From Desulfobulbaceae bacterium (GTDB taxonomy: Bacteria; Desulfobacterota; Desulfobulbia; Desulfobulbales; Desulfocapsaceae): a stretch of DNA of 64,000 nt. Made by a program: the position numbers and the translations under genes. The stretch spans positions 1-64,000 of the forward strand of contig JAITSS010000030.1 of the NCBI GenBank assembly GCA_031287565.1, given 5' to 3'. How positions within the stretch are numbered: position 1 is the stretch's first letter; the number at the start of each line of letters is the position of its first letter. This document shows positions 1,977 to 11,898 of the stretch, one piece after another. The notes under the pieces are model-generated. The model searched no databases and was not told the origin of the DNA. It was given only the letters and a program-made list of their open reading frames with translations.

Positions 1977-3179
1977 TCAGGCGCGGGCGGCTTGTTGTAA
2001 GGCGGCGCGCATCTGGCCCAAACGCTCGTCGCTCATCCTGACCGGAATCTGGAAACCCAGGCAGCGCTCGATGAAACCAGCCGATTGCGGCAGCGCCGCC
2101 GGGTCGTAGACAAAGCGCCGTTTGCCGCGCGCGGTGAGCGGCCAACCTTCGCGGCTGATGGTTTTGCCGTCCAACAGGTGTTCCCAGCGCGGATAATAAT
2201 GCCAGGAATTAGCGCCGAAATAGGTGGCGGCGCAACCGTTTGCCGCTAAGACCTCGTTCACCCGCTGGCAATGCTCGACGCTATCGAGGAAAAAGCAGAG
2301 ATGAGTGGCCGAATCGCCGTCCTGATCGATGATTTCCCGGAATTGGACGCCAGGCAGAACCGCCGCCGCTTCTTTGAACGCCGCCTTGTTTTTCTTCTGA
2401 CCGGCGATGATCACCGAATCGAGCTTGGCCAATTGCGCCAGGCCAATCGCCCCTTGAATTTCCATCATCCGGTAGTTGCTGCCGACAAAGCGCCGTTTTT
2501 CGCCGCCGCGTCCGCCGGGATTCGCTTGGTGGTCGTGGCCGTGATCGTGATATTCCGACATGCCTCGCCACAATTCGCCGTCGTTTGTGATGATCATGCC
2601 GCCTTCGCCGGTGGTCATGGTTTTGACCGAATCAAAGGAAAAGGTACCGCAAGCGCCAAAGGTGCCCAGATGTTGTCCTTTGTAGCGGCCGCCTGCCGAT
2701 TGCGCCGTGTCTTCGAGCACCGGGATGCCGTATTTTTGCGCGATGGCGACGATTTCCTCGATGCGAGCCTGCGCCCCCAGCATATGCACCGGGATGATGC
2801 AGCGGGTATTGGCGCTGATCTTTGTTTCCAGATTCGCCGGATCCATATTCATGGTGGCGTCCACCTCGGCGAAAACCGGGGTCGCGCCGACTTCAAGAAT
2901 CGCCTCCCAGGTGGCGACAAAGGTAAACGCCTGGGTGATGACTTCATCGCCCGGCCCGACGCCTAAGGCCGCGAGCGCCACTTTCAGCGCCGCCGTGCCG
3001 GATGTCACCGCCTGGGCAAACGACGCGCCGCAGAAGGCGGCGAATTTCTCCTCAAAGGTTCGCACCTTGTAGACGCCCTGGCGTTCCGCCGCGAATTCAT
3101 AGCGAAACAGGACGCCGGTTTTCAACACATCCTGAATTTCCTGTTCTTCTTCTTTGCCAAATACCTCGAAGCCGGGCAT
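1977..3179 (-). CDS. DegT/DnrJ/EryC1/StrS-family PLP aminotransferase, KdnA-like
   Basis: A 400-residue sugar aminotransferase. The ATG at 3179 is chosen because AAGGAGAAAAAC lies directly before it and the N-terminus then reads MPGFEVFG, as in 8-amino-3,8-dideoxy-manno-octulosonate transaminase (KdnA) of Shewanella. Other matching features are the LFRYEF segment, SGTAALKVALAALGVG, the LEDTAQSAGG Asp that contacts the PLP ring, the Schiff-base Lys about residue 186 in SFDSVKTMTTGEGG, and the C-terminal NSWHYYPRWEHL motif. KdnA makes Kdo8N, an 8-amino form of Kdo in lipopolysaccharide. The usual oxidase partner KdnB is not in the window, so the exact substrate is inference; an aminotransferase for another nucleotide or acidic sugar is the alternative. 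It is the last gene of the run before dcm. Confidence 0.8.
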   Translation of the reverse strand: MPGFEVFGKEEEQEIQDVLKTGVLFRYEFAAERQGVYKVRTFEEKFAAFCGASFAQAVTSGTAALKVALAALGVGPGDEVITQAFTFVATWEAILEVGATPVFAEVDATMNMDPANLETKISANTRCIIPVHMLGAQARIEEIVAIAQKYGIPVLEDTAQSAGGRYKGQHLGTFGACGTFSFDSVKTMTTGEGGMIITNDGELWRGMSEYHDHGHDHQANPGGRGGEKRRFVGSNYRMMEIQGAIGLAQLAKLDSVIIAGQKKNKAAFKEAAAVLPGVQFREIIDQDGDSATHLCFFLDSVEHCQRVNEVLAANGCAATYFGANSWHYYPRWEHLLDGKTISREGWPLTARGKRRFVYDPAALPQSAGFIERCLGFQIPVRMSDERLGQMRAALQQAARA

Positions 3180-3319
3180 GTTTTTCTCCTTTTCAATATG
3201 GGGAACGATGGAACGGGCGCTTCTCATCCGCCGGACGTGGACGGACGAGTTCTTTCCCTCTTTTTTCTTTTCGCGTCAAGGCGTCGGGCGGGCGTTTCTC
3301 CGGCTCGCCGCCAGGGGAA

Positions 3320-3787
3320 TCAGAGAAAATGCGCCACTGGAATATACTGTTCATGGCCGTCGCCGGTGATGACAACGCCGCCGCTTTTCAACCAGGCGTG
3401 CGCTTTGAAGGCTTGCCCCGGCTGGGCATAAAAATGTTTCGCGCCGAGAATCAGCAGGCAGGTCACGCCCTGGCGGCGCAGGAAAAAACGCGCCACCAGC
3501 GCCTGGGCCAGACATCTCCCCGGCCAGAAGGGAAATTTTCGTTCGATGATGCGGAAAATTTTCCGTACCCGCGCCTGTCTGCTCAGGCAGGCTGTCGCGC
3601 TGGCCGCGCTCGGCCCATCCAGCTGGTAATCGGCGGGGACGCTTCGCAGATGCGCAAGCCGCATCAGTTTTGGCAAGGGCAGGACGGCGACGGCGAGTTG
3701 CGCCCAAGGTAAAAGGGCCAAAGCGGCCAGCAGCAGAAACCGCTCGCGGCTCTCCAAGCGCCGGAAGGCGGCGAGATTATGACGCAC
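3320..3787 (-). CDS. Lasso peptide biosynthesis B2-like protein (transglutaminase-like fold)
   Basis: This small protein resembles the B2 leader-peptidase subunit of lasso peptide systems. A hydrophobic N-terminal segment (FLLLAALALLPWAQLAVAVL) is followed by the cysteine-protease core: Cys in WPGRCLAQALVARFFLRRQG, then LLILGA, then the catalytic His in FKAHAWLKSGG. A GTG at 3787 overlaps the last codons of the B1 gene and gives a B2-like N-terminus; an in-frame ATG lies at 3811. The B1 and B2 genes overlap, as they do in lasso clusters. No lasso cyclase (asparagine synthetase-like) gene or precursor peptide was found nearby, so the target is unknown. It may process a different ribosomal peptide or a distantly encoded precursor. 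Confidence 0.72.
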   Translation of the reverse strand: MRHNLAAFRRLESRERFLLLAALALLPWAQLAVAVLPLPKLMRLAHLRSVPADYQLDGPSAASATACLSRQARVRKIFRIIERKFPFWPGRCLAQALVARFFLRRQGVTCLLILGAKHFYAQPGQAFKAHAWLKSGGVVITGDGHEQYIPVAHFL

Positions 3788-4073
3788 GAACCAGCAACAG
3801 CCCGGCGACATAGAGTTGGCGCAAAAAAATCAGCACGTCGCGTTCGCATTCAGCGCGGCTGACCTCATACTCGTCCAGCAAATGGTCAACCACAGCCGAG
3901 ACCATGACCGGTTCGGCCAGAGCGCTCCAGATGCGGCCAGCCACCGGGCCGAGGCCGTAATAGCTACTCTTGGCCACATCCAGCAGCACCGTTTCGTCAT
4001 CGACGGTGTTCGACAGGGTTGAAGGCGTTCGCGAGACGATGCTTTCCAGTTGAATATCCGTTTCCGTGGGCAT
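3777..4073 (-). CDS. PqqD-family peptide-chaperone protein (lasso B1-like)
   Basis: A 98-residue PqqD-fold protein. PqqD/B1 proteins are RiPP recognition elements that bind the leader of a precursor peptide and hand it to the partner enzyme. The diagnostic core is present: VLLDVAKSSYYGLGPVAGRIW, where L-D--S-YY-L---G--IW is the family signature, followed by the helical half VVDHLLDEYEVSRAECERDVLIFLRQL. It overlaps the B2 gene and starts 15 bases after the AICAR transformylase stop, so it sits in the same transcript. The pairing with B2 supports a joint leader-processing role; no substrate is visible. Confidence 0.78.
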   Translation of the reverse strand: MPTETDIQLESIVSRTPSTLSNTVDDETVLLDVAKSSYYGLGPVAGRIWSALAEPVMVSAVVDHLLDEYEVSRAECERDVLIFLRQLYVAGLLLVRAS

Positions 4074-4087
4074 GTTCCCCTCGCGCT

Positions 4088-5377
4088 TCAGTGTTTGAAT
4101 GAACGTTGTCCCGTGTACATCATCGCCACCTGCGGTCGGGCCTCGTTGCAGGCGACAATGGTTTCAAAATCGCGCAACGAACCGCCGGCCTGCAAAATGG
4201 CGGTGATACCCTGGCGAATGCCGACATCGGCGCCGTCGCGAAAGGGAAAAAAGGCGTCGGAAATCATGACGCTGCCGGGTAAACCAGCGCGGTCGCGGCG
4301 GGTTGTCTCGTCGATTTCCTCTTTGGCGGCGCTCGGCTGCTCGCCCGCCGCGATCTTCAGCTCCAGATCGGCATAACCGCAACCATATCGGTCAAATGAG
4401 AGCATATCGGCGTATTTTATGTACGCTTTATGCACGGCGATTTCGGCGACGCCAACCCGGTCCTGCTCGCCCGCGCCGATGGCCACAGTGCGGCCGTCCT
4501 TGACGTACAGCACCGAATTCGAGGTGACGCCATGTTCAACCGCCCAGCCGAAGAGCATGTCGGCGATTTCCGCCTGGCTCGGCTGCCGGTCGCAGGCATA
4601 GGCTTTTCCCTGCCAAACGGCCACGGCCGCTTGCAAATCGGCGGCGTGGCGAATCGAATTGACCGCCGATTGCTGGACGATGATGCCGCCGTCGATCAGA
4701 CTTTTGAAATCGACGAAGCGGGTGTGTTCGTAGGCCGCCAGCCGGTCGATGCGAGCGATTTTCAGAATGCGCAGGTTTTTCGCCCGACCCAGAATCTCCA
4801 GAACGCCCTCTTCAAAATCCGGCGCGGCCAAGACTTCGAGGTAATTCTTGGCCAAAAGGTTCGCGGTGTCGGTGTCGCAGGGCCGATTCAGAACCACCGC
4901 GCCCCCGAAGGCGGCGATGCGGTCGGCGCGCAGGGCGCGGTCAAAGGCGTCGGCCAAATCTTTGCCATAGGCCGCGCCGCAGGGATTGTTGTGCTTCAGA
5001 ATCACCGCCGCCGGTCGGTCCATCAGATATTTGATGATATTTAAGCCGTTATCGACATCGGTCAGGTTAATTTTGCCCGGATGTTTGCCGACTTGTAGCA
5101 TGTCGGCGACGGAAATCGCCGAGACCAGGCCATTGCCCGGCCTAATATAGGCGGCCTCGCCCAAAACAAGATTGCCGCCCACCAATTCGTACAGGGCGGC
5201 TTCCTGGTCAGGGTTCTCACCGTAACGCAGACCGCGCTCATCAACGCCGCCGTCGGCCAAGGGGATCGCCCAGGTTTTTTTGCGGTAAACCAAGGTCTGG
5301 TCGCCAAAGGAAATGGTCATCTCGGTCGGAAAATGGTCGCCCAGGATGGTGGAATAGGCTTTTTTCAGGTCAGTCAT
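4088..5377 (-). CDS. Stand-alone AICAR transformylase (PurH C-terminal domain only)
   Basis: At 429 residues this matches the formyltransferase half of PurH, which converts AICAR and 10-formyl-tetrahydrofolate to FAICAR in late purine synthesis. Diagnostic segments are LRYGENPDQEAALY, the VILKHNNPCGAA active-site region (Lys-His-Asn), RADRIAAFGGAVVLN, LPGSVMISDAFFPFRDG near the C-terminus and MYTGQRSFKH at the end. The N-terminal MGS-like IMP cyclohydrolase domain of full-length PurH (about 520 residues) is absent, so IMP cyclisation must be done by another protein. The gene starts 52 bases after the GlmU-like gene and lies in a run of same-strand genes with short spacers. Confidence 0.88.
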   Translation of the reverse strand: MTDLKKAYSTILGDHFPTEMTISFGDQTLVYRKKTWAIPLADGGVDERGLRYGENPDQEAALYELVGGNLVLGEAAYIRPGNGLVSAISVADMLQVGKHPGKINLTDVDNGLNIIKYLMDRPAAVILKHNNPCGAAYGKDLADAFDRALRADRIAAFGGAVVLNRPCDTDTANLLAKNYLEVLAAPDFEEGVLEILGRAKNLRILKIARIDRLAAYEHTRFVDFKSLIDGGIIVQQSAVNSIRHAADLQAAVAVWQGKAYACDRQPSQAEIADMLFGWAVEHGVTSNSVLYVKDGRTVAIGAGEQDRVGVAEIAVHKAYIKYADMLSFDRYGCGYADLELKIAAGEQPSAAKEEIDETTRRDRAGLPGSVMISDAFFPFRDGADVGIRQGITAILQAGGSLRDFETIVACNEARPQVAMMYTGQRSFKH

Positions 5378-5429: not shown

Positions 5430-6434
5430 CTATTCCTGTCGCGTATGCGCCGCTGTTTTGCCGCCCTGTTTGAGCGCTACGCCGGTCAGGCAAGTGTAGG
5501 GGCCGATGTGGCAATCGTCGGCAATGCGGCAATCGGTGAGAATCGCCCCCTGACCGACGCGGCAATCGTGGCCCAGGCTGGTCGCGCCCAAAAGCCTGAC
5601 GCCTGGTTCTAGCACACAATCCGGCGCGACGCTGACTGTGGGGGCAACGACGATGCTTTCCGGGTTTTCCATGCTGATACCCGAAAGCATCAGCTCGCGG
5701 TTGCGGCGGCGCTGAAGTTCCTGGTGCGCCAGGGCCAGTTCAACACGGGAATTGACGCCCAGAACTTCGTTGGGATCGTCGTTGACGAATTGCTCGACAC
5801 TTTGCCCAGATTTAACAATTTTCTCAATTATATCCGTAAGATAAAACTCTCCCTGCGCGTTGTTGCGGTCAATCGAAGACAGGGCCGAAAACAGTGCGTC
5901 GCGTTCGACCAGGTAGATGCCGGCGTTGATGGTTGTTATCGCCCGCTGTTCCGGGGTTGCGTCTTTTTCTTCAACAATTCCAAGAACTTTCCTATCCGAT
6001 CCGGTTAAAACCCGGCCATAGCCATGCGGGTCGTCGAGTTTGGTGGTCATCAGGAGGCAGGCGGCGCCGCTTTTGTGATACTGCGCGACCATTCTTTGCA
6101 GGCTTTCCGGACGCAACAAGGGCGTGTCGCCGCAGAGAATCATCACCGCGCCCGGAGGAATCACGCTTTCGGTCAGAAGCACGGCGTGGCCGGTGCCGAG
6201 TTGTTCTTCCTGCGCCACCGTGGTCACGCCGAATTCGGCAATCGCCGCTTCGACCGTTTGACGTCCATGGCCGACGATGACCACGAGGCGCTCGGCCGCA
6301 AGCGTTTGGGCTGCGGCTAGGACGTGGTGCACCATCGGCGCGAAGAAGACCTCGTGCAGCACCTTGGCCTTCTCGGATTTCATGCGGGTGCCCTTGCCGG
6401 CGGCGAGGATGATAACAGAAAGATTCTGGTTCAT
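5430..6434 (-). CDS. GlmU-like UDP-N-acetylglucosamine pyrophosphorylase, short form
   Basis: A 334-residue nucleotidyltransferase. The ATG at 6434 gives the canonical N-terminus LSVIILAAGKGTRMKSEKAK, the sugar-1-phosphate uridylyltransferase loop. QEEQLGTGHAV, ILCGDTPLLRPESL and the GRVLTGSDRKVLGIVEEKDA segment fit the GlmU N-terminal domain that makes UDP-GlcNAc. The C-terminal part carries only about four hexapeptide left-handed beta-helix turns (SVAPDCVLEPGVRLLGATSL onward) and ends abruptly, where full GlmU (about 450 residues) has an acetyltransferase domain. It is therefore probably uridylyltransferase only. Acetylation of glucosamine-1-phosphate must come from elsewhere, or the enzyme uses another N-acetyl sugar phosphate. 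Confidence 0.85.
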   Translation of the reverse strand: MNQNLSVIILAAGKGTRMKSEKAKVLHEVFFAPMVHHVLAAAQTLAAERLVVIVGHGRQTVEAAIAEFGVTTVAQEEQLGTGHAVLLTESVIPPGAVMILCGDTPLLRPESLQRMVAQYHKSGAACLLMTTKLDDPHGYGRVLTGSDRKVLGIVEEKDATPEQRAITTINAGIYLVERDALFSALSSIDRNNAQGEFYLTDIIEKIVKSGQSVEQFVNDDPNEVLGVNSRVELALAHQELQRRRNRELMLSGISMENPESIVVAPTVSVAPDCVLEPGVRLLGATSLGHDCRVGQGAILTDCRIADDCHIGPYTCLTGVALKQGGKTAAHTRQE

Positions 6435-6456
6435 GGGCGCGTGTCGTGGGTGAATT

Positions 6457-8121
6457 TCAGGACTGGCGGGTTTCGAGCAGGATGCCGTTTTCGAGGCACA
6501 GCACCCGGTCGGCGAGCGATAAGGCGGCCGGGCGGTGAGTGATGATGATAACCGTTTTCCCTTGAAGTTTCTCCAGATTTTCTTCAATAAACTGGCGCTC
6601 TCCCTCTGGATCGAACATCGCGGTTGGCTCGTCTAAAATGAGAATCGGCGGGTCTTTCAGCAGCGCCCTGGCCAGAGCCAGGCGCTGTTTCTGGCCGCCG
6701 GAAAGTTTGATGCCTTTGTCGCCGATGGCGGTGTCGAAGCCGCGCGGCAGTTTTTCGATGAACTCCAGGGCGTTCGCCGCCCGCGCCGCTTGCCGCATTT
6801 GCGCCTCCGAGGCATTTGGCCCGCCGATGATAATATTTTCGGCGACGCTGGCGTTTTTTAACAGGATATGCTGTTGCACCAAACCGATTTGCCTGCGGAG
6901 AGCGGTCAGCGAGAGCGTTGGCAAATCGTGGCCATCCAGGCGGATGCGCCCGGAATCGGGTTCAATGAAACGTAGCAATAAAGCGGTCAGGGTGCTTTTG
7001 CCAGCGCCATTTTCGCCGGTGATGACTACGGTTTCCCCGGCCTCGATGCGGCAGTTCAGGCCGCGCAGAATTTCCGGACGCCCCGGCCAGGCGAAGCGCA
7101 GGTCTTCGATGCTGATCGCGCCCCTGACCGCGTTCGGGGCGAAATCGATGCCCTGACCATACGGTTCTGTTTGTTGCCTGAAGACCGCATTCAGCCGATC
7201 GGCGGCGCTTAGGGCGTGTTGCAAGGAGCCGTACATGTCGGCCAGACGGCTGACCGGCCCGGCCAGCAGCATGGCGTATAAGGCCATCGACACCAGTTCG
7301 CCTGCGGTGAATGCGCCGACGGCCACCGCGTCGCCAAGAAAGAACAGCACGACAAAAAGGGTGGCCACGGCCAGCAAACGCCCGGTCGGCGCGAGCAGGG
7401 CCTGCGCCTGATAATACCCCTTAGACGCCCGCAGCAAAGCCTCGGAGGCGGCGGCGAATTCAGCCGATTCGGCCCGTTCGCGACAGAAGGATTTTATTAG
7501 TGGAATATTTGCCAGGTTTTCTTCGGCGAGCGACATCAGCGCCGCATAATTGTCCAGGAAGGCGCGGGCGCGCGGCCGGGTTTTGCGACCGAGGATTTTC
7601 AGGATGAGGGCTGTCAGCGGCAGCATCGCCGCCACTACCGCCGCCACTGCCGGGCTGATCAAGGCCAGGCACAGCAATGCGCCGCAGGCGGTCAGAATGA
7701 TGGGGACGAAGGCGATGACGGAATTGGTGAGAAAGGCGCTGAGCGCCATGCAGTCCTGGCTCAACAGGCTGAGCGTCGCGCCGGGTTTCTGGTTGATGAA
7801 GTAGGCGAGCGGCAGGGCTTGCAGATGGTCGTACAGGTGGTTTCTGGTTTTGCTGACCATGGTTTCGGCGGCCCGCGCCGACAGGACGCGATTGCCGTAG
7901 GAGATCAACGATTGCAGGCACAGACAAAAAAATATCAGCGCCAGCATCGGACGAAAAGTCAGGCTGCCGCCGGAGAGTGTTTGTGTCAGACGACCAGCCA
8001 GCCAGGGGATGAGTAATCCGACGCCGTTTTCGGTCAGGCTCAGCGCGATGAGCAAAACGACAATGCGGCGGCCGGGCAAATCGTCGCGAAACAGGGTAAA
8101 AAGGTGGGAAAAAGACCGCAT
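6457..8121 (-). CDS. ABC exporter, fused permease and ATPase (MsbA-like)
   Basis: A 554-residue half-transporter of the type IV exporter family. Six membrane segments occupy roughly residues 20-300 (RRIVVLLIALSLTENGVGLL is the first). The ATPase domain follows with Walker A GENGAGKSTLTALLL, the Q-loop (LVQQHILL), signature LSGGQKQRLALARALL, Walker B PPILILDEPTAMFD and H-loop IIITHRPAAL. An in-frame TTG at 8145 would add eight residues; the ATG at 8121 is preferred, though neither has a strong ribosome-binding site. It ends 22 bases before the GlmU-like gene. Substrate could be a lipid-linked glycan or, given the B1/B2 pair downstream, a peptide; the sequence does not decide. Confidence 0.85.
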   Translation of the reverse strand: MRSFSHLFTLFRDDLPGRRIVVLLIALSLTENGVGLLIPWLAGRLTQTLSGGSLTFRPMLALIFFCLCLQSLISYGNRVLSARAAETMVSKTRNHLYDHLQALPLAYFINQKPGATLSLLSQDCMALSAFLTNSVIAFVPIILTACGALLCLALISPAVAAVVAAMLPLTALILKILGRKTRPRARAFLDNYAALMSLAEENLANIPLIKSFCRERAESAEFAAASEALLRASKGYYQAQALLAPTGRLLAVATLFVVLFFLGDAVAVGAFTAGELVSMALYAMLLAGPVSRLADMYGSLQHALSAADRLNAVFRQQTEPYGQGIDFAPNAVRGAISIEDLRFAWPGRPEILRGLNCRIEAGETVVITGENGAGKSTLTALLLRFIEPDSGRIRLDGHDLPTLSLTALRRQIGLVQQHILLKNASVAENIIIGGPNASEAQMRQAARAANALEFIEKLPRGFDTAIGDKGIKLSGGQKQRLALARALLKDPPILILDEPTAMFDPEGERQFIEENLEKLQGKTVIIITHRPAALSLADRVLCLENGILLETRQS

Positions 8122-8145
8122 GGATAGCTTCGGTGTTGGGAACAA

Positions 8146-9065: not shown

Positions 9066-10130
9066 ATGCTTGTTCCAGCTTGTCGGCCTCTTCTCATCGG
9101 CAGTTTCCCCGGACACTCGCACATGGAAACCGTGCGGACCATTTTTTCGACCACGCCCGATTTCCCGGTTTGGCCACAGTTGCCGGTTTATGGCAAAGAA
9201 GGGATGATCGAACAATTTCTTGAAGGATTTCCAGGCGTTACCTGCGTTGAGGATAAAGTCTGGATTGAGACTGCGGCAAACGATTTCGATGAACAATTGC
9301 TGGCCTTTTTCGAGGACTATGTCCGCTGTCTGGACAACCCGGCGGCGCTTGTTGATTCGCGTTTCGCCTTCTCCGAAGAGGCGGGCAAAGGTCTGTCGGC
9401 CTTGCTGTCATATTGTCAGGCTTTACCACAAAAACCTGTCGCATTAAAGGGCCAGGTGACGGGACCGGTGACCTTTTGCACTAGCGTGGTTGATGAGCGC
9501 GGGCGGGCGATTTTTTATAACGAGGTTTTGCGCGACGCGGCGATCAAAATGCTGGCAATGCGGGCGCGTCTCCAGACGCGGTTGATGCGGGAACTATCGG
9601 ATAATGTTTTGATTTTTCAGGATGAACCCGGCCTCTCCGGTTTCGGCTCGTCGGCCTTTATCACCATCACGAAGGACGATGTGGTGGCGGCAATCGGCGA
9701 AGTGGCGGCGGCGATTCATGAAGAAGGCGGCCTCTGCGGCGTTCATGTCTGCGCCAATACCGAATGGCCGCTTCTTTTAGAAAAGAACGTTGATGTCCTG
9801 AGTTACGACGCTTTTTCTTATTTCGACAAGCTGGCGCTCTATCAGGATGAGCTGGCCGCCTTCATCCGTCGCGGCGGTCTTCTCGCCACCGGCATCATCC
9901 CAACCGCGCCGGAATTCATCGACCAGGTGACGGCGGCCGATTTGACGCGACGCTGGCTAAAACAGTGCGACGCCCTGGTCGCCCTTGGCCTGGAACGGCG
10001 GCGCATTCTAAACCAGACCTTCATCACGCCCAGTTGCGGCATGGGTTCGCTGACCGAGGCGCAGGCGGGAAAAGCGCTGGCCCTGCTAGGCGATGTTTCG
10101 GCGGCGGCGCGACAGGCGATGTCGGCATAA
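9066..10130 (+). CDS. MetE/uroporphyrinogen-decarboxylase-superfamily protein, probable methyltransferase
   Basis: A 354-residue TIM-barrel protein of the cobalamin-independent methionine synthase/UROD superfamily. It starts with PLLIGSFPGHSHMETVRTIF, as in MetE-like C-terminal domains. The putative zinc ligands are visible: His and Cys in GVHVCANTEWPLLL, and a Cys in the C-terminal TPSCGMGSLTEAQA motif that matches the MetE-type substrate-binding loop. ALKGQVTGPVTFCTSV is the typical barrel strand motif with the TGP turn. Stand-alone proteins of this size act on methyl donors other than 5-methyltetrahydrofolate polyglutamate (for example methylated corrinoids). The true substrate is unknown. 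It is 19 bases upstream of a DUF89-like gene. Confidence 0.72.
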   Translation: MLVPACRPLLIGSFPGHSHMETVRTIFSTTPDFPVWPQLPVYGKEGMIEQFLEGFPGVTCVEDKVWIETAANDFDEQLLAFFEDYVRCLDNPAALVDSRFAFSEEAGKGLSALLSYCQALPQKPVALKGQVTGPVTFCTSVVDERGRAIFYNEVLRDAAIKMLAMRARLQTRLMRELSDNVLIFQDEPGLSGFGSSAFITITKDDVVAAIGEVAAAIHEEGGLCGVHVCANTEWPLLLEKNVDVLSYDAFSYFDKLALYQDELAAFIRRGGLLATGIIPTAPEFIDQVTAADLTRRWLKQCDALVALGLERRRILNQTFITPSCGMGSLTEAQAGKALALLGDVSAAARQAMSA

Positions 10131-10149
10131 AATTGCAAGGGAAAACGCC

Positions 10150-11898
10150 ATGAGCGAGATATTTGTCCACAATAAGGGCCAGGACCCGGATCGGGATGCC
10201 TGGTTGACCAATTTTTTCACGGAAAATCATCTCTCCTATGAGGCCACTCCCGATACGGTCGCCTCGCCGGAGCAGTTACGATTCATCATCTATCTGGAAA
10301 TGGGCGAGCTGTATTACCCCTGTTCCGACGCGCTGTTTCGGGCCATTCTGGAGAAACGCGCCGACTCCATGCTGCTTTCCGAGTACATCGCCATCTGGAC
10401 GCGGCTGGAAAAGCTGGTGCGGGCCGTGGTGACTGACTCGTACAAGCAGCGCTATCTGCTCAGCCTCCTGACGAATAAATACAATCATGACACCGCCAGC
10501 AAGGTGCGGCTGCCGGGCCGGGTTGAAGAGGGGCTTCTGCGCATCTTCACCTCGATCAGTGATATTGACCGACCGCTGGCCGCCGAGCGTGAAGCGGAAA
10601 ATCGCCGCGCCGACGCTTTCCTGCGTTCGGAAGCCTTTGAGAAGGCGTTTCATTCTCAGGAAGGGCTGGATATTTCCGCCGAATCGACGCTAAACGATAT
10701 CGACCTGCAACTGCATCTGTTGCGTCTGCGCCGCCTGTTGCGCCTGTCCAACATGCGGACGATCTGGCAGCGGCACACGCCGCCGGATATGGCCGAGCTG
10801 AAAGCGACGATGAACGAGCCGGTGCATATCCCGGAATGGGCCTGGCTCTGCAACTGGCTGGCTGAAGTGATCGCCGGGAAAAGGCGGCCCTGCATTTTAT
10901 GGGTCGGCGGAAGTTCCGGAGAAATTGTCTTTGATATTGCCATCTTACGGATTTTTATGAAGATTGGCATCAAGGTGATTCTCGCGGTGAAAGAGGATTT
11001 TTACTACCACCGGGTGTCGTTTTCCGACTTGCTCGAAGACCCGGTTCTGCGCGGCCTGCTGGAGGATGCCGACATCGTTGGCGATCCGGGTATTTCTAAA
11101 AATGAACTGCTGCGTTATCTGGACAGCGACAACCGCCTGCTGGTCATCTCGGACGGCACCCGCGAGCCGTTTAACCCGCTTGTGACCTCGGTCACGTATG
11201 CCAGGGCCTTCAAAGAGGCGGATCTGGCGGTCTATCGCAACCCCGGCGGCAGAGACACGGTATCGAATCATTTTCAATTCACGCGCGATATTGTCTCAAT
11301 CATCACCACCGATGACGGTGAACTGGATATTTTTGTCAAAACGCACCATCCAAAGGCGGTGCGCTTTTCGCGAGCGACGTTGCGGAAGATGGCGGAACAC
11401 CTGATCCACACTGCGGAACAGGAAAAAGAACGCGGCAAGGCCGTGATGTTCTATTCGGCGATTGTTGGCTCCATCCCCGGCCAGCTCGCCACCGCCAAAG
11501 AAATTCTCAAAATTTTTATCGAACACCTGCGCTCGTCCTTGGGCGACGTGCTGATCATCAATCCCGGCGAGCATTTCATTGAAGGGATGGACGCCGACGA
11601 CATCATGTATATGTGGGAGATTTTCCAGCGCTCCGGCGTCATCGACATCTGGCGCTTCCAGACCATGGACGACATCGTCAAAGCCTTTGAATTGATGGGC
11701 AAAAAGGTGCCGCCGGAATGGACCGGCAAAGACGCCACCTATTCCACCGGCTGCACCAAAGAGATGGAAATCGCCGTGCGGATGCAGAAACGCTATCCGG
11801 AAATGCAACTGGTCGGCCCGCCCTATGAAAAATTTCAGCGGCGCAAGGAATACGGCGTCGGCAAACTCTACGACCGGACGCTCGTCGGCGGCGATTGA
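10150..11898 (+). CDS. Large protein with a divergent DUF89/ARMT1-like core
   Basis: The ATG at 10150 follows AAGGGAAAACGCC and gives a 582-residue protein with no confident named family. Its middle (about residues 245-430) has the order of elements seen in DUF89/ARMT1-like phosphatases: WVGGSSGEIVFDIAILRIF, then KVILAVKEDFYYHRVSFSDLL, then a AFKEADLAVYRNPGGRDT segment. In canonical members the first motif reads DNAGE and ligates metal; here it is GSSGE, so the site would be changed. N- and C-terminal regions are unrecognised helices; the last part has GCTKEMEIAVRMQKRYP and RRKEYGVGKLYDRTL. It is soluble, lacks a signal peptide, and is coupled to the MetE-like gene. Function unknown. Confidence 0.5.
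   Translation: MSEIFVHNKGQDPDRDAWLTNFFTENHLSYEATPDTVASPEQLRFIIYLEMGELYYPCSDALFRAILEKRADSMLLSEYIAIWTRLEKLVRAVVTDSYKQRYLLSLLTNKYNHDTASKVRLPGRVEEGLLRIFTSISDIDRPLAAEREAENRRADAFLRSEAFEKAFHSQEGLDISAESTLNDIDLQLHLLRLRRLLRLSNMRTIWQRHTPPDMAELKATMNEPVHIPEWAWLCNWLAEVIAGKRRPCILWVGGSSGEIVFDIAILRIFMKIGIKVILAVKEDFYYHRVSFSDLLEDPVLRGLLEDADIVGDPGISKNELLRYLDSDNRLLVISDGTREPFNPLVTSVTYARAFKEADLAVYRNPGGRDTVSNHFQFTRDIVSIITTDDGELDIFVKTHHPKAVRFSRATLRKMAEHLIHTAEQEKERGKAVMFYSAIVGSIPGQLATAKEILKIFIEHLRSSLGDVLIINPGEHFIEGMDADDIMYMWEIFQRSGVIDIWRFQTMDDIVKAFELMGKKVPPEWTGKDATYSTGCTKEMEIAVRMQKRYPEMQLVGPPYEKFQRRKEYGVGKLYDRTLVGGD

Follow-up and report, generated by a model that had tools for sequence, protein, structure and literature searches.

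The window is a stretch of 64 kb, the first part of contig C80 (69176 bases) of G000, a 2.7 Mb draft MAG of the Desulfobulbales (86% complete, 83 contigs, reported contamination 0.35%). It begins at the first base of C80, and the outermost neighbours visible on that side are a restriction-modification-like gene pair at the contig edge (52-1951; a C5-methyltransferase and a DUF4928 protein) with a GC content of 49%, compared to about 59% in the adjoining genes. The genes that follow are:

1977-3227, minus strand: DegT/DnrJ/EryC1 aminotransferase (PF01041); genus-level neighbour
3320-3811, minus strand: B2, putative Cys-His leader peptidase, 163 aa (NF033537, Transglut_core3, residues kept)
3777-4073, minus strand: B1, stand-alone PqqD-type RiPP recognition element (RRE), 98 aa (PF05402, NF033536, PDB profile matches)
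4088-5377, minus strand: stand-alone AICAR transformylase (AICARFT), half of a split purH (PF01808); host locus, not part of the pathway
5430-6434, minus strand: GlmU-like nucleotidyltransferase with a short left-handed helix (TIGR01173); host locus, not part of the pathway
6457-8145, minus strand: MsbA-type ABC exporter, probable lasso exporter or D protein (ABC_membrane and ABC_tran)

Two large frames lie further on (9066-11898), one of 354 aa without a Pfam match and one of 601 aa without an NCBIfam match.

The B1-B2 pair

B1 matched the Pfam PqqD model PF05402 (E 1.4e-17) and the NCBIfam lasso PqqD model NF033536 (E 4e-22; 78.2 bits, just below the 80-bit cut-off). When the PDB was searched with a profile of the family's B1 proteins, the solved lasso RREs TbiB1 (4e-23) and TfuB1 were recovered. 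B1 has the PqqD-fold RRE expected of a lasso B1 protein. B2 matched Transglut_core3 (E 1.1e-15) and the lasso B2 model NF033537 (70 bits, cut-off 33). Its residues Cys100, His138 and Trp140 occupy columns that are invariant in the family alignment, as predicted for a lasso B2 leader peptidase in which the catalytic Cys and His are kept. The structure model of B2 had a pLDDT of 89; searches with B2 against solved structures and folds gave no informative match. The B1 and B2 frames share 35 bp, and B1 starts 14 bp past the AICARFT stop. The Pfam and NCBIfam profiles thus confirm the overlapping PqqD-like and transglutaminase-like genes that an earlier note had described from the sequence.

Only one PqqD-family protein and one lasso B2 were found in the whole draft genome. 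No cyclase was found in the 64-kb window, and when all of it was scanned by motif and HMM for a precursor-like frame near the pair, only chance-like frames came up. The earlier note's statement that the pair has neither cyclase nor precursor nearby therefore holds within the window. Genome-wide it does not, as candidates for both were found on contig C34.

Cyclase and precursor candidates on contig C34

C34 156741-158621: Cys-less AsnB-type lasso cyclase candidate, 626 aa (lasso-clade placement in tree)
C34 164878-165030: predicted lasso precursor, 50 aa, leader MNTTVRQTVDSEKKVWAQPVLTRLEVGETA, core SKQVQCTNDSEFPGAALCNS (motif scan and HMM)

Asn-synthase searches of G000 returned two long proteins, on C65 and C34. 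The C65 protein was rejected as a cyclase, being closest to amidotransferase/asparagine-synthetase models and grouping with true amidotransferases. The C34 protein is without the N-terminal Cys of amidotransferases and was the only such AsnB-type cyclase candidate found in G000. Its best NCBIfam model was the lasso cyclase NF033535, at 187 bits. Because this score is below the cut-off of 525 bits, we assigned the protein by tree. Among 40 proteins, it fell inside the lasso-cyclase clade (support 100/99), as sister to the cyclase of a related genome, G083 (99/96). As both proteins form long branches, the tree was rebuilt without G083, and the C34 protein remained in the lasso-cyclase clade (100/100). 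Note that the pairing with G083 unites two long branches, which we counted as a weakness. S239GGLDS and K528, which do not vary among the aligned lasso cyclases, are retained in the C34 protein, and a fold search with it returned only the AsnB/beta-lactam synthetase superfamily. Thus, the AsnB-type cyclase that lasso biosynthesis calls for is present in the genome. The protein is 18-23% identical to other lasso cyclases, has a very long branch and deviates at 25 of 59 otherwise well-conserved columns; it could be drifting. A public genome scan gave no relatives of it. Its start codon overlaps the pyrF stop by four bases.

The precursor ORF was first found by motif scan. A model built from 14 precursors of other genomes, with G000 left out, had this ORF as its single match in the whole genome (E 0.0034; E 2e-5 among 1803 ORFs). 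Note that the first model (A1) included G000's own precursor, and its E-value of 4.9e-17 is a self-match that was not counted. The leader carries W(-15)xxP(-12)xL(-10). The five W-type precursors, among them that of C34, all carry W at -15, T at -2 and an acidic residue at core position 9, which is Asp on C34. The ORF thus has the [Y/W]xxPxL leader, the T(-2) and the acidic residue at core position 7-9 that are expected of a lasso precursor; T(-2) and [Y/W]xxPxL are leader recognition elements (PMC10368454; PMC13381572). A Cys6-Cys18 disulfide could form in the core. The genome search proposed in the earlier note, for lasso cyclase homologues and short precursors, hence produced one candidate of each, both on C34. 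No HprK-type kinase was recognised in the C34 stretches read around them.

Lasso A, B and C genes are usually clustered, and the chemistry does not require it. Here they are not clustered together, B1-B2 lying on C80 and the precursor and cyclase genes on C34, at least 45 kb apart. Conceivably, the organism has an intact cluster that assembly or binning of the MAG broke up or mixed: the pair sits 3.3 kb from a contig end, and the assembly is incomplete and in many contigs. However, even if the contig ends abut, the pair would be at least 45 kb from the precursor and at least 52 kb from the cyclase, and the C34 parts sit between ordinary genes with a context of their own (pyrF, BacA). C34 and C80 also match in tetranucleotide make-up (r 0.98, compared with 0.36-0.76 for the other genera tested), pyrF on C34 has orthologues at 79-82% identity in the congeners, the pyrF, BacA and HI0933-like neighbourhood is kept in the congener G001, and the reported contamination is low. 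We therefore regard an assembly or binning artefact as very improbable. At 86% completeness, a second, complete cluster could be absent from the assembly.

Neighbouring genes in related genomes

The ABC exporter, the short GlmU-like enzyme and the stand-alone AICARFT that the earlier note had listed beside the pair were all confirmed. Its KdnA-like label for the aminotransferase was not confirmed; the assignment stops at the DegT/DnrJ/EryC1 level, as no specific NCBIfam cut-off was reached. The GlmU-like protein scored 342 bits against TIGR01173, under the cut-off of 366.85.

AICARFT occurs in 73 of 93 genomes of the family, mostly without B1/B2, and in 17 of 18 genera; the other purH half is represented in G000 by an N-terminal PF01808 match (G000:C4:23436-23633). 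The usual order of the locus in relatives is GlmU-like, AICARFT, DgkA, Gfo/Idh-type protein, IspA and DinG, where the names beyond AICARFT and GlmU-like were assigned by reading the sequences. Genomes that lack B1/B2 also keep the GlmU-like gene next to AICARFT. In both congeners, G001 and G002 (79-87% complete), a DegT gene 85-87% identical to that of the window directly follows AICARFT, again without B1/B2. Since all three genes are present without the pair in relatives, they represent context, and we dropped them as candidate pathway enzymes; the suggestion that they form one peptide system with B1-B2 found no support in the comparison.

A homologue of the ABC exporter lies upstream of the GlmU-like gene in G083, G021, G096 and G081, all with B1/B2 at the locus; those relatives lacking B1/B2 whose loci were read have no homologue in this position (Fisher p 0.003, from hand counts that ignore kinship). 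The distribution suggests that the exporter of the window probably belongs to the lasso pathway.

Complete clusters and orphan pairs in relatives

In G083 (L059; same family, other genus), the ABC exporter, GlmU-like, AICARFT, B1 and B2 genes are on one strand, an HprK-type kinase gene and the cyclase gene are convergent to B1-B2, and the precursor and a PEP-CTERM gene adjoin. This cluster resembles G000 in the gene order from the ABC exporter to B2 and in its precursor type, and differs in having cyclase, kinase and precursor beside B2 in one cluster. At the AICARFT site of G021 (L053) and G096 (L061), cyclase, kinase and precursor are likewise present, and a short contig of G095 (L125) carries B1, B2 and cyclase genes with the same genes flanking them. 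The gene order whose conservation the earlier note proposed to test is thus found in G083 but not in the congeners, where no B1/B2 was found. The same note took a complete lasso cluster around the pair in relatives as evidence against an orphan system. Such clusters do exist in G083, G021, G096 and probably G095; in our reading they show what the pair derives from.

The window B2 was nearest to the G083 B2 in the B2 tree (90/79) and the window B1 nearest to the G083 B1 in the B1 tree (91/18, weak). G083 is thus the nearest relative in three separate trees; the support is strong in the cyclase tree, moderate in that of B2 and weak in that of B1. In the incomplete genomes of G001 and G002 we found no B1/B2, no cyclase of the C34 type and no precursor. 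No cyclase follows pyrF in G002; in G001 the contig ends 324 bases past pyrF.

At the AICARFT site, G081, G007 and G023 carry the pair and G018 carries B2, in each case with no cyclase at the site. The orphan pairs of the Desulfofustis-type genomes G007 and G023 (L052:8945-9710 and L045:8857-9622) lie between AICARFT and DgkA, and appear to be under purifying selection, with dN/dS of about 0.20 (B1) and 0.32 (B2) at a dS near saturation. No lasso cyclase and no convincing precursor were found in these two genomes. G007 (4.2 Mb) and G081 (6.8 Mb) are each one contig, with the pair at the AICARFT locus; those of their AsnB-like proteins that were placed in the tree fell among true amidotransferases, and the precursor model returned nothing convincing. 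In G018, where B2 is beside AICARFT, the AsnB-type protein encoded at L109:4129-5985 is Cys-less and branches off just outside the lasso-cyclase clade; this may be a second scattered system.

That G083, G021 and G096 have complete clusters at the AICARFT site raises the question of whether the pair and the ABC exporter are the remains of a lasso cluster once whole at the AICARFT locus, the C34 parts being unrelated or decaying. Retention of the pair without an adjacent cyclase in G081, G007 and G023 and the fast evolution of the C34 cyclase would fit such a relic. In G000, however, none of the four frames (B1, B2, cyclase and precursor) is disrupted, their key residues are retained, and all parts co-occur and are of one type. 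Moreover, the dN/dS values of about 0.2 and 0.3 in Desulfofustis indicate that retained pairs need not be dead. We consider a relic unlikely.

Alternatively, B1-B2 might act on a precursor other than that of C34 without a ring being closed, which may be the case in Desulfofustis and G081. G007 and G081 keep the pair although no cyclase or convincing precursor was found, and the G007/G023 pair is under apparent purifying selection. Against this stands the existence of a matching cyclase and precursor in G000, and in the B2 tree the G007, G023 and G081 pairs are placed on a different branch from the window B2. Such a stand-alone function is quite improbable here.

PEP-CTERM genes beside lasso loci

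On C34, a PEP-CTERM gene starts 37 bases past the precursor stop, with a terminator-like hairpin after it. A precursor directly followed by a PEP-CTERM gene is common to C34 and G083. PEP-CTERM genes beside lasso precursors in Desulfobulbales are:

L077:3878-4892
L059:62-1072
L053:4990-6040
L041:9677-10683
L128:5430-6472

A PEP-CTERM gene was present in the fetched stretch at 8 of 21 lasso loci (at six of these, no more than 0.4 kb separates it from the precursor or cyclase gene), a count that needs an independent survey because some of the loci had drawn attention for their PEP-CTERM gene. The six positive genomes searched have 3 to 8 PEP-CTERM genes each. In L077, a VapB/PIN-type toxin-antitoxin-like pair, read by eye at about 5660-6540, is flanked by the PEP-CTERM gene on one side and, on the other, by a 208-bp copy (91% identical) of that gene's 3' end and terminator.

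Discussion

The pair probably recognises and removes the leader in a lasso pathway whose genes are scattered among three or more loci, and B1-B2 would act in trans. Considering the domains, their uniqueness in the genome, the place of the cyclase in the lasso clade, the precursor motif and the co-occurrence of the parts in G000 as compared to the two congeners, we infer a scheme in which every enzymatic step, the exact core, the role of the exporter and the working together of the parts are predictions. B1 of the window would bind the W(-15)xxP(-12)xL(-10) leader of the C34 precursor and B2 would cut after T(-2)A(-1). The C34 cyclase would then adenylate Asp9 and join it to the amine of Ser1, forming a nine-residue ring, and the ABC protein (6457-8145) would export the product. 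Since B1-B2 follows AICARFT and the cyclase gene follows pyrF, both may be transcribed as parts of housekeeping operons. The earlier note's option of a lone pair serving a distant precursor gains support from the cyclase and precursor of matching type on C34.

Paeninodin-type clusters, with separate B1/B2 and an HprK-type kinase, are the closest known systems considered (PMC13381572 for their lasso parts; PMC10368454 for T(-2), YxxPxL and the B1/B2/kinase division). They share with G000 the B1 RRE, the B2 Cys-His peptidase, an AsnB-type cyclase, the WxxP leader, T(-2) and an MsbA-like transporter. In contrast, G000 has its genes at three or more separate loci, a core predicted to begin with Ser, and a PEP-CTERM gene after the precursor, and the C34 stretches that were read revealed no kinase. 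Maturation enzymes encoded away from the precursor are also known from the citrulassin PAD (PMC12971885) and lanthipeptide proteases (PMC8960859). There, a tailoring enzyme or the final protease is detached, whereas in G000 the core lasso set (A, B1-B2, C) is split; the unclustered cases met in our literature searches involved tailoring enzymes or proteases only. Genome-mining tools seek adjacent lasso genes and would therefore overlook a scattered pathway or class its genes as orphans.

That lasso precursor genes are repeatedly paired with PEP-CTERM genes in this family may point to a connection of lasso peptides with surface proteins sorted by exosortases. In full-text searches of the open literature, no paper was found that discusses such a connection; one paper mentions the two topics separately (PMC8776678).

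A lasso pathway with its core split among three loci would be well suited to testing how B1 locates its leader in trans. More tentatively, the B1-B2 proteins of this family may be able to live apart from cyclase and precursor, as part of a scattered, PEP-CTERM-paired lasso pathway here and under selection without a cyclase in Desulfofustis. A pair kept by selection without any cyclase would mean that B1-B2 has a role outside lasso ring formation.
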